A stretch of DNA of 64,000 nt from Amphibalanus amphitrite (Eukaryota > Arthropoda > Thecostraca > Balanomorpha > Balanidae): the NCBI RefSeq assembly GCF_019059575.1, contig NW_024881574.1, forward strand, positions 620,001 to 684,000. Direction: 5' to 3'. Positions 271 through 57,600 of this stretch are shown piece after piece. The first letter of the stretch is position 1, and the number at the start of each line of letters is the position of its first letter. The notes under the pieces were generated by a model. That model was not told the DNA's origin and made no database searches. It worked only from the letters and a program-made list of their open reading frames with translations. The translations under genes were made by a program, and so were the position numbers.

Positions 271-1159
271 CCCTCGCATGTGTGCGGCGTTTGCCAGCTT
301 CTAATGTGTAGGGGGGGGGGGGGGGGTCGGTTGGACCCCCCTTGCCGTTTGGCCCCTGATCGAGCTAGAGCTTCGCGGAAAAAACGAGCGTGTTGCCCGT
401 GACGAGAGGAAGCCGGTGATACCCAATTTTAAGGTCCTAGGTCATTGGTTGACCTTCCAGGTCAGGTCAATGACCCAAAGTCGGGAAAATCGGGACCTGT
501 TAGAAAGTCGTAAAGTGTGGCTGCTAAGGGTTTTTTTCGGGGTGCTGATCACGAATATCGTGTTAGTTTTGATCACAGATGATGTCTTGAAGCATTTAGA
601 CCAGGTCGGGTCAGGTCAGGTCAGGTCAACCAGTAGGCGTCGTGACGGGTATTCGTAGTACGTGTCAACCGCCTCTGACAGCTTCGTAACATGTTACGAA
701 GTCACCAAAACTACTTCGTAAATGTTCAAATGGTTGCTAAATTCGAATTCATCTCCAAAAACTAGCCTAGAAACATGTAAAACTCGAAAAAGTGACCCGA
801 GGTCACCCGAGGTCACCAAAGGTCAATGACCTGACCTGACCTTCAGGTGACCTTGACACACACGGGAGTAACATCAAATCACATGTTTGAACGTTTGAAA
901 CCACGAAAAGCTTGCAAACACGCGGCTAATGCGAGCCGACATACGCGAAATCGCGATTCCGGCCAAACATGGTCTCGGAAAAGAGGTCACAGGTCAAAGG
1001 TCATTTGGGTCAGGGTCATGAAATTTTCAGGGTAGGTGTCAAATTGATCAATGCGAGGGTACTGAAAGTTTCGTCGCGATCGGCCGCTTTTTACGCGAGT
1101 TATTCGCGAAAAACCATGGGGGGGTCCATCCGACCCCCCCCCCCCTACACATGCGAGGG
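271..1159. mobile_element. TTAA-flanked non-autonomous element, 'CCCTCGC' subfamily, copy 1
   Basis: The element is bounded by TTAA on both sides (267-270 and 1160-1163), with inverted ends reading CCCTCGCATGTGT. The left end carries the terminal motif twice (CGCATGTGT, then AATGTGTAGGGG about 30 bp inward); the right end has it once. Both ends continue into a G-tract and C-tract hairpin. The interior is full of AGGTCA/TGACCT half-sites, including a run of GGTCA at 5-bp spacing near 608-629. No transposase is encoded. TTAA targets and an asymmetric internal terminal repeat are hallmarks of piggyBac, so this is inferred to be a piggyBac-type MITE. It interrupts a minisatellite that continues on both sides. 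Confidence 0.85.
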
Positions 1160-1163
1160 TTAA

Positions 1164-54600: not shown

Positions 54601-57600
54601 CTCTTGCTATGCTGCACCATAGCTGGCTAGTGATTCTCTTTTGGCTAGAAATGGCATTAATCATTATCTCCACTGGCGAAAATGGCACTTGACATCACCG
54701 AATGCAACGTTCATGTTTGTTAGGATACATAAAATCAGGAAGATTGCGCGAATTAAATAGGCAAACGTGGAATAAAATAGGTGCTGGATGTTTTGGTTTT
54801 GGTGCTGAATCAGCAAACAGCAAATACGGAGTTCAACTAGACGATCTGGCAACTTTAGGCTGTGTGGAAGCAATTAGGTGCCAGATTCAGATATTAGGGT
54901 CGAATAAGCATTTTTGGGCTGAGCAGCAATTAGGTGCCAGAAACAGCTTTTTAGGGACCAGAAACAAATATTCCCCTTTAAAAAGTATCAGTTGGTAAAC
55001 ATACCAAGAGATGTTTGGTTACATTACACAAGACTTGTCAATTTGGTTTACAGTGTACATATGTTGCATGTTCCCATTCAATGATACATTAACCCTCGCC
55101 GGACCTATTGGCTTTCTATGTACATACGCGCCGGCCGGGGGGGGGGGGGGTACGATTTCCCTCGCCGTTTCGCCCCTGATGAAGCTAGAGCGTCGCGGAA
55201 AAAACAAGCGTGTGCGCCGTTACAAGACGCAGGGACTGGTACCCGATTTTAAGGTCTCATGAGGTCAGGTCAAGTGACCAAGGGCCAGGGTTCAGTTTTT
55301 CATAACTTCGCAAAAAAAAAACGGTCGGAGAGCCGCGATTTTGGCATCATCGTGTTCGCCTCGCTCAGGCGCGTCGAATGGTATACTTTTTGTTCGGGTG
55401 AGGTCAACTTGAGGTGTTGACCTCGGGTCAAGGGCAGGTCAGCTCCCCCAGATCACGAAGCTGGTTGAAAGAGGTCATGTTACATATTACTCGAATCGGC
55501 AGGTCTTCCTGAGTTTATTGGTGGCTTTCCCGACTCGCTAACTCAATTTGATGGGGAGTTATTGATGAAAAACTAATGACCCAAGTATATAACCGCAATG
55601 AAAACCGTAAGCCTCATGCTAATAATTATATTCAAAATAGGGCCAAGAAAATAAGACATGTTGGCCAAACTGACAAACTGACTTTTGTCAAACCGTCTTA
55701 CGGTTTTCATTGCAGTTATATATGTAATCATGAGCCTCAAAACCGCACTTTCTGTAATCAATGACCCCAGTTACCATAAATGACGCCACGCAATGTCAAC
55801 AATGCAAAAGTGAAGCATCGGACCTTACAAGGCGTGCAAGAAATCACGATTCCATGTGCTGGAGACAGTTTGAGATAGTTCTCGGCGCTAACATAGCAGT
55901 TTTCATTTTTCCCCATTGACTTATACCTAATGGTGAGGTCACGTGGCCGACCTGACCTCATGTGATTTTTAGGGAAAATCCGAGATATATGTACAAGTTG
56001 TGATACCTCTGGATGATACTACATCCTGTAAGTTTCATCTCCCTGTGAAAGTTCCTCTGGCACTGACGGCGTTGCGAAGTTGCGACATCTGAGGACTGTG
56101 CAGAGGTTCACTTATGACGTCACAGGTCAGTGACTTGACCTGACCTGAAAATGCGGTTGGTGTCACAAGATGCGGCTTGGATCAAAGGTCAGGTATGCCA
56201 AGTTTCAGCTCTCTATCGCCTGCGTGTTCGGAGCTATCGTGAAAAACCCTATAGGGAGGCGGCACCCGCCCTCCCCCCCCCCCGGTCGGACGGCGAGGGT
56301 TAATGATACATGCAGTAGGTACCTGATAAGAGCATAAGGTTAAAACATGCCTTAAATTCATTTCAATAATAACGCTCGAAAGTGTCACAGCTAGACAAAA
56401 AAGAAAAACTACTTAAAAATAAGCGGATGTGAACACAATCTCCTTGACCGAATCCTTACAAAATGCAAGTCACGGGCCATGGCACCCCAGAAAACCTTGC
56501 TTAAAAAGACCCACTGAATCGCCACGAAATCAAGTGCTTTAACATAGGCGTGTCATCTCTATGTATATAAGATCTCTATGGTATCGACTCCCTCGGCTGT
56601 ATTGTGCATTTTGACCTTTCTCAAAACACTTTGGCAAATTTTTACAAAAACGCAGCATAAAAGTCGGTGCTCGAAAAACGCCCTCTGTTATCCCCATCTG
56701 AAGTTAAGGTTCAGAGGTCGCTCACTGGTGGATGGCACGGTATATTTGTGTAAGGGTACACGTCTACCATATCCGACAACACATGATTTCGATACACTGA
56801 TGCATTACATTCGTCCAGCGTGCTTGGCACGAGAAAAGTGTGTCATTATTCTGTTTTCTGTGTTATCAAACGTGTCGAAGGTCCCGCCAAGCGTGAAAAT
56901 ACACAGCCTTATTGTGTTTTGGGTGCGATTAACACATGACTGATGTGTTACCAGTACAGAACATGCCCTCACTGTGTCGATTTGTTTTCAGTGTAAGTAA
57001 CATCCATCAGAAAGTGTGATCAAATAACGGCTGGTGACCTTCCATGACCTAGCATGACCTTTTGAGTGACCACGCACCGATGACATGACCACTGACGGCT
57101 AGCCAGAAGCTGCACCCTGCCCGTTGCATATGGAACAGGTGGTGATGTCATGATTCTGAAATTATATTGCAGTTTTGGCGCACTTGTCAGAGCAGAAGAC
57201 ATTCCCACTTTTCCTCCATGACTATAGACGTATGATGGTGAAGCCATGAAGCTGACCAGACGTAAGATCGAAAATTTGAAAGTACGAAACGTAAGAATAG
57301 TTGGCACTGCTACTCATACCTAAGCAATTCGCAGCTTGTAGGAAACCAGCTTTGAGTTGGCAAGACTGCAAATTTTGATTTAGAGGCAAGGATGCTTGAA
57401 AAGGTGATCGATCTTAGGTGTCCTAGGATAAGTTTGGAAACGGGATGCACCATTCGATGTGTTTTGGGCTTTGCGGGCTTTGCCAAGTTTCGCGGCGTTA
57501 CGTGCCTCGTTTTTTTTTTTTTGCATACACGATCAGTAGGTATCTACTTTTGGGATTTTCGGTCATGGCAAGCCCCCGTCCCCGTCCCCCCCTATCGAAA

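Follow-up and report, generated by a model that had tools for sequence, protein, structure and literature searches.

The 64,000-nucleotide stretch of the Amphibalanus amphitrite genome analyzed here (contig NW_024881574.1, positions 620,001 to 684,000; hereafter the window) contains seven transposable elements bounded by TTAA, designated A to G. Their best explanation, in which we have considerable confidence, is that they are non-autonomous piggyBac elements, that is, miniature inverted-repeat transposable elements (MITEs) of ~0.9-1.2 kb, moved by full-length piggyBac elements of the same genome through cut-and-paste transposition at TTAA. The superfamily is a known one, and the layout of the ends is that of an orthodox piggyBac. 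Comparison with relatives elsewhere in the genome further suggests that whole modules, at both ends of an element, have been exchanged between MITE bodies. More broadly, we give about even weight to the proposal that the piggyBac MITEs of this genome are modular: the full binding-site cassette (tip, motif, spacer, inner motif and G/C palindrome) would be swapped at both ends together via inter-element repair, with junctions at the homopolymer edge, so that a body changes its helper and then multiplies anew, reaching roughly a thousand copies or more; the CMITEs of corals would be accounted for in the same way.

TTAA is present on both sides of all seven elements, as the first-pass annotation of the window had claimed, and the limits given here count both flanking TTAAs. 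Elements A (267-1163, plus strand, 897 bp) and G (55089-56303, plus strand, 1215 bp) carry the long end on the left and the short end on the right; A bears the module ATGTGT, and G is a relative of L011a, an element from one of the loci (numbered with L) fetched from the genome. D (28525-29711, plus strand, 1187 bp) and E (30464-31647, minus strand, 1184 bp) both interrupt the reverse-transcriptase frame of a long interspersed nuclear element (LINE), and F (37551-38732, minus strand, 1182 bp) is 93% identical to E. C (20588-21595, minus strand, 1008 bp; module CACCGACG, core CGGATATCCG) is nested within B (19929-22145, minus strand, short end left and long end right), which for this reason reaches 2217 bp; all other lengths lie between 897 and 1215 bp. 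Thirteen of the 14 tips read CCC or CCT, the exception being the right tip of B (22142-22145), where a single changed base, TTAACTCGCG, gives CTC. The seven complete copies named in the first pass are thus all present, and their positions are right once TTAA is allowed for, except that B does not end before C, as had been listed, but is interrupted by it and has its far end at 22142-22145.

Empty sites reveal the exact boundaries. When the flanks of D and of E (90 bp per side) are joined at a single TTAA, the LINE frame that each element breaks stays open across both sites. From 27741-28524, to the left of D, this frame passes through the host DNA that lies outside the elements between D and E (29712-30463, plus strand), and it resumes from 31648 beyond E. 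The open reading frame at 29575-30567 matches RVT_1 (Pfam); no Pfam domain is recognized in the segment at 27741-28524, which is tied to the RVT_1 segment only via the open frame. At the site of C in B, two relatives of B (L029b and L018a) are uninterrupted and read TTCAAA, one base off TTAA.

The ends share a common anatomy. At the short end, the tip is followed by a motif of 10-11 bp and by a palindrome composed of a G-run, a core and a C-run, while at the long end the order is tip, motif, ~17 bp, a second copy of the motif, and palindrome. A strict pattern (TTAACC, G-run, short core, C-run) is fitted by 53 ends from 27 fetched loci and the window; this survey leaves out L001-L004, which lie inside longer loci, and includes several ends that are repeats of one family. 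The ends of E, F and G fall outside the pattern, as does the right end of B with its altered base. Of the 26 short ends, 25 have 13-15 bases ahead of the G-run and one has 23; of the 27 long ends, 24 have 39-42 and three have 44-47. Among offsets of 18-44 bp, the second motif is found at 27 bp in 18 of 27 long ends, at 26 bp in six, at 28 bp in two and at 25 bp in one, so that the distance of 30-45 bp proposed in the first pass must be replaced by one of 26-28 bp (26/27). The core is mostly 8-10 bp in length and often holds A/T, and G-runs span 6-16 bases in the measured copies of A; of the poly-G/poly-C hairpins with an AT core that had been described for each end, those of E and F are imperfect and those of G interrupted.

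Pairing the ends by position yields 23 complete elements, with one long and one short end apiece. Within elements, the three motif copies and two palindrome cores agree beyond all 10,000 permutations in a set of 18 elements with different modules (G and L011a being related, and L044 added), the core values for E and G meaning little since the core parser ran into the body. This asymmetry, with a palindrome and a duplicated inner motif at one end, is one of the features by which the piggyBac superfamily is recognized. In piggyBac itself, the DDBD interacts with bp 7-16 of an end, and the palindrome that follows (bp 17-33) is bound by two cysteine-rich domains (CRDs) as a dimer; a 17-bp insertion and a second copy of the motif set the right end apart, and its bp 34-63 are nearly the same as bp 7-35 of the left end, an offset of 27 (PMC7351741). 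The earlier suggestion that the asymmetry is as in piggyBac therefore agrees with the published layout of the left and right ends.

Full-length relatives with ends of the same type were found among the piggyBac loci of the 808-Mb genome, in which the PF13843 profile gives 116 scored matches. The first family, of 3.97 kb, is represented by four copies (from long end to short end, L025 3443-7417, L027 2515-6485, L028 2539-7357 and L029 555-4531), which are pairwise 98.5-99.4% identical outside ~840 bp that are extra in L028. In L027, a frame of 673 codons with a mechanically assigned TTG start is intact, and its product matches PF13843 (2.4e-69) and the piggyBac transposase 6x67 (2.2e-78), the latter from position 116 through the CRD. 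The second autonomous element, L044 (333-5055, 4723 bp), has a frame of 659 codons that matches PF13843 (9.9e-60) and 6x67 through the CRD (1.2e-56). Residues D326, D407 and D507 of L027 align with the catalytic triad D268, D346 and D447 of piggyBac (numbers from PMC7351741), and the catalytic aspartates are invariant in L027, L044 and L031. In the same three sequences, the CRD positions C616, C619, C643, C646, C651, H654, C662 and C665 are invariant as well and align with the CRD of 6x67, which by sequence points to a cross-brace CRD. An autonomous copy encoding a DDD piggyBac transposase between the same kind of termini, for which the first pass had proposed a search, is thus found both in the L025/L027/L028/L029 family and in L044, and these two transposase-bearing families, together with the end layout, support its identification of the elements as piggyBac-type MITEs.

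Autonomous and non-autonomous elements are also linked by their sequences. The 948-bp MITE at L027:1571-2518 is an internal-deletion derivative of the adjacent autonomous element, with ~90% identity over both terminal segments, and shares one TTAA with it. E and F are ~72% identical to the first ~690 bp of L044, and F is 67% identical to its last 375 bp; E, F and L044 have in common a tip asymmetry, with CCT at the short end and CCC at the long end, and the tips of E (CCTTCGC and CCCGCGC) are like those of L044. Other piggyBac families of the genome (e.g. L009, L023, L024 and L026) encode transposases 27-28% identical to that of L027, and their ends, such as TTAACCCATTAG, are without G-runs. 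A further piggyBac family, with TTAACCCATTAGTGCC ends and an open frame of 604 amino acids, has many copies of equal score, two of which (L017:3563-6243 and L018:3573-6253) lie within G/C-palindrome elements.

Elements of this type are abundant. The short-end pattern (gap 6-7) has 16,299 forward-strand matches in the 808 Mb and the long-end pattern (gap 32-35) has 19,327, while the reversed patterns have none; forward counts were used because reverse-strand counts are inflated, one place being counted at several gap lengths. Doubling these values gives a rough estimate of 33,000-39,000 ends of each kind, or, taking 1 kb per element, ~4% of the genome. Of 2,746 candidates for the body of A, the 40 best-scoring share 99-100% identity and include the window copy, so this subfamily moved recently. 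Eleven further copies of the A body were characterized; ten have a recognized tip, each with different flanks beside TTAA. Abutting family members were also seen to share a single TTAA (L027:2515-2518, L029:4528-4531, and the flanks of L035 and L038), which may mean that insertion often takes place at the ends of copies already present.

The terminal modules do not follow the bodies to which they are attached. The bodies of A, L010a, L019a and L022a are 90-98% identical, yet they carry three types of module; between A and L019a, 715 of 772 body positions agree, against 15/38 in the long-end block and 7/12 in the short-end motif. Genome-wide and on both strands, a body anchor of A is found with ATGTGTA 1,609 times, with CGGCACA 1,210 times and with CCCGTATA 950 times, and a long-end anchor of C is found with its own module (long-end tip) 2,065 times and with TATTCCTGGCG 1,373 times. 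Reversed controls give 0 for all five combinations; the anchors are 15 bases long, and the counts have to be read in the light of the full-length examples. When 80 ends in the fetched DNA are clustered by body, four module families occur in a long-end cluster of 19 and three in a short-end cluster of 15, proportions that are biased by the 11 loci fetched with an A body, the families having been grouped by eye. L031a and C are 88-100% identical per 40-bp window over ~640 columns, the first of which lies immediately inward of the long-end palindrome, and 40% identical at the tip; after these ~640 columns the sequences diverge. The two ends of an element change module together, the junctions lying at the inner edge of the palindrome, and the 17-bp spacer differs along with the module. 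At L019:9812, a long end with TATTCCTGGCG has lost its G-run, and the DNA beyond it resembles only in part the DNA that flanks this module in L031.

Two explanations of these observations have to be weighed. The motifs and palindromes of one lineage might change rapidly, base by base, in step with the transposase, while the body drifts slowly and no exchange takes place. Such gradual but concerted change is possible, above all between A and L022a, whose modules keep a likeness (22/37 aligned positions) that extends to the spacer (9/17 against 5.1 in shuffled sequences, a value reached by 86 of 2000 shuffles). Selection on the motifs alone would, however, be expected to spare the spacer, and the spacer is as altered as the motifs: it agrees at 7/17 positions between A and L019a (shuffles 4.8) with bodies 93% identical, and at 6/17 between C and L031a (shuffles 4.8) with bodies 97% identical over ~680 bp. 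The spacer of L019a is, moreover, nearer to that of L013a (10/17) than to that of A, and the match between L031a and C begins and stops in the manner of a recombinant. These changes count in favor of exchange, although the spacer may itself be selected. Overall, we regard gradual change as a real but clearly less probable account, and block exchange of end modules between bodies as the preferred, though unproven, one. Repair from a copy of another family would also leave both ends matched and would give L031a its half-converted look.

As a mechanism, we propose that each end would constitute one transposase-binding module. The catalytic/DDBD core of the transposase would recognize the terminal CCC together with the 10-11 bp motif, and a dimer of C-terminal CRDs would bind the G-run/core/C-run palindrome. 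At the long end, the extra motif 27 bp in would lie at the step where, in the right end of piggyBac, loading of a second transposase dimer has been proposed. A broken copy would then be repaired on the template of another family, with junctions in or beside homopolymer tracts, and this exchange of modules would switch which transposase the body answers to. The hairpins noted in the first pass are read as probable CRD-dimer sites, by analogy with piggyBac, because the order of the parts is the same, the 27-bp step recurs, the G-run starts after 13-15 bases and the core often holds A/T. In the CRD of piggyBac, the recognition residues are R567 and K569 (PMC7351741); by our own count on the alignment, both fall in the loop that follows the first cysteine pair, and this loop, extended throughout the present clade, comprises 23 residues in L027 versus 11 in piggyBac. 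The G-rich palindrome may go with the longer CRD loop.

It could be argued that the G/C palindromes act as DNA structures (cruciforms or G-quadruplexes) or as replication blocks, rather than as a protein site. The long G-runs and the largely self-complementary cores at most ends examined would suit such a role, as would the wide variation in homopolymer length. Yet the position of the palindrome and its 27-bp shift at the long end match the CRD palindrome of piggyBac, and the cores, which vary from family to family, are alike at both ends of a given element, as would be expected of a site that is read by sequence. A structural role, which is not exclusive of protein binding, is therefore considered unlikely as a replacement for CRD binding.

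TTAA is also the target of another superfamily, Kolobok, so the target alone is not diagnostic, and with 116 scored piggyBac matches a chance neighborhood of piggyBac genes and Kolobok elements could be envisaged. The transposase, however, lies between matched long and short ends in four copies of one element and in one of a second, and the first of these has given rise, by deletion, to a MITE that keeps its ends; an origin from Kolobok is very improbable in general and is rejected for the two autonomous families, whose piggyBac transposases lie inside matched ends. Homopolymers and G/C-rich tandem arrays do occur in the window, but the notion that the pattern is a chance or low-complexity artefact of G-runs has a negligible probability and is rejected, given the empty reversed-pattern controls and the frame that stays open across the empty sites of D and E.

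Returning to piggyBac MITEs with putatively exchanged and CRD-bound modules, a number of observations weigh against this account. Matched ends of the G/C type surround a transposase in five of 24 piggyBac loci with wide flanks (L025, L027, L028, L029 and L044), and L027 is the only unbroken copy among the four of its family, L025 being frameshifted, L028 interrupted and L029 carrying a stop. Among the fetched loci, no transposase element has a module identical to that of any window subfamily, and for A, B, C, D and G no full-length partner with an identical module was found there; L044 and L025 are relatives only, and would be no more than candidate helpers of each MITE. Relative transposases in L031 and L022 (39% and 58%) lie near these MITEs, and no ends of their own were found. 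The palindrome is imperfect in E and F and interrupted in G, and its recognition by the CRD is suggested by position and by domain homology. In near-identical copies (L033-L043) the G-run varies from 6 to 16 and the C-run from 6 to 12, through either slippage or assembly error, which implies that the spacing constraint is loose or that the assembly miscounts homopolymers. Spacings between those of the short and long ends have 7,295 forward matches (reversed control 8), a count that is confounded by long G-runs and was not used as a clean control; of the 38 forward places listed on contig C1, 27 coincide with short ends whose G-runs are long, and the other 11 do not.

Apart from the complete copies, the window contains several remnants, and the mosaic (2.0-3.2 kb) and the solo end at 33553 of the first-pass annotation were found to be real ones. 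The mosaic comprises a G-type remnant (2001-2394, minus strand, left limit approximate) and a truncated element (2395-3202, minus strand, long end at 3202) whose body resembles C, E and F. The former, which has its short end at 2394 and no long end of its own that could be found, is recognized by the 85% identity of 2221-2384 to 56126-56289. The solo long end (33400-33553, minus strand, inner limit approximate) has an L013-type module and is without an intact G-run palindrome. A B-like remnant (53480-53600, plus strand, limits approximate) has a G-run/C-run palindrome and adjoining body and no tip, and is recognized by the inverted match of 22016-22102 to 53506-53592 (84%). Clusters of GGTCA/TGACC in direct and inverted repeats occur in or beside element bodies (e.g. 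582-630, 800-840 and 21595-21650), and A lies inside a diverged GCGCCCCTC tandem array (1-266 and 1164-1760). Elsewhere, the window holds a second LINE-like open reading frame of 809 amino acids (RVT_1; 42162-44591, minus strand), an inverted repeat at 39497-39832 (168 bp, 97% complementary, no spacer), and tandem arrays at 16899-17922 and 22977-23395 with units of ~53 bp and 42 bp.

piggyBac is widely used in genome engineering. The many natural end variants, with three motif copies and two palindromes each, form together with the open-frame transposases a natural experiment on which bases each protein reads, and end exchange, if true, would let non-autonomous elements pass from one helper to another and go on amplifying. 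No description of G-run/C-run palindromes at piggyBac ends was found in the literature searched, which excludes most subscription papers. The first-pass judgment that the hairpins are unusual is thus fair: they sit at the place of the piggyBac CRD palindrome but consist of a G-run and a C-run.

The closest known system is piggyBac from Trichoplusia ni, which likewise has a TTAA target, a DDD transposase with a CRD and an A-tract in the middle of the palindrome, and which combines a short left end with a long right end bearing a 17-bp insertion and a duplicated motif at an offset of 27, an asymmetry that its investigators call "puzzling" and "enigmatic" (PMC7351741). The barnacle elements differ in the G-runs around the core and in motifs that vary by subfamily. 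To our knowledge, the palindrome of Trichoplusia ni piggyBac is without G or C runs. Myotis lucifugus piggyBat is similar in that its binding unit is a motif plus an imperfect palindrome, bent and with an A/T-rich center, and in that inner copies are repeated on one end; unlike in the barnacle elements, its right end is without a palindrome, and its CRD fold differs from that of piggyBac (PMC11707139). Its sequence match is also weaker (3.4e-30 versus 2.2e-78 for piggyBac).

With respect to the exchange of ends, the only MITE families of the same body with different ends that were found in the literature searched are the CMITEs of the coral Acropora. These are TTAA piggyBac MITEs whose families share an interior and differ in their terminal repeats (PMC2872659). 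Unlike the barnacle elements they are ~100 bp in length, with some in tandem arrays, the available parts of their published account make no mention of G/C palindromes or duplicated inner motifs, and their autonomous relative matched only beside the terminal inverted repeats (PMC2872659). The origin of the shared interior was called unclear by the authors of that work, and end exchange as proposed here, if true, would be a candidate answer (PMC2872659).

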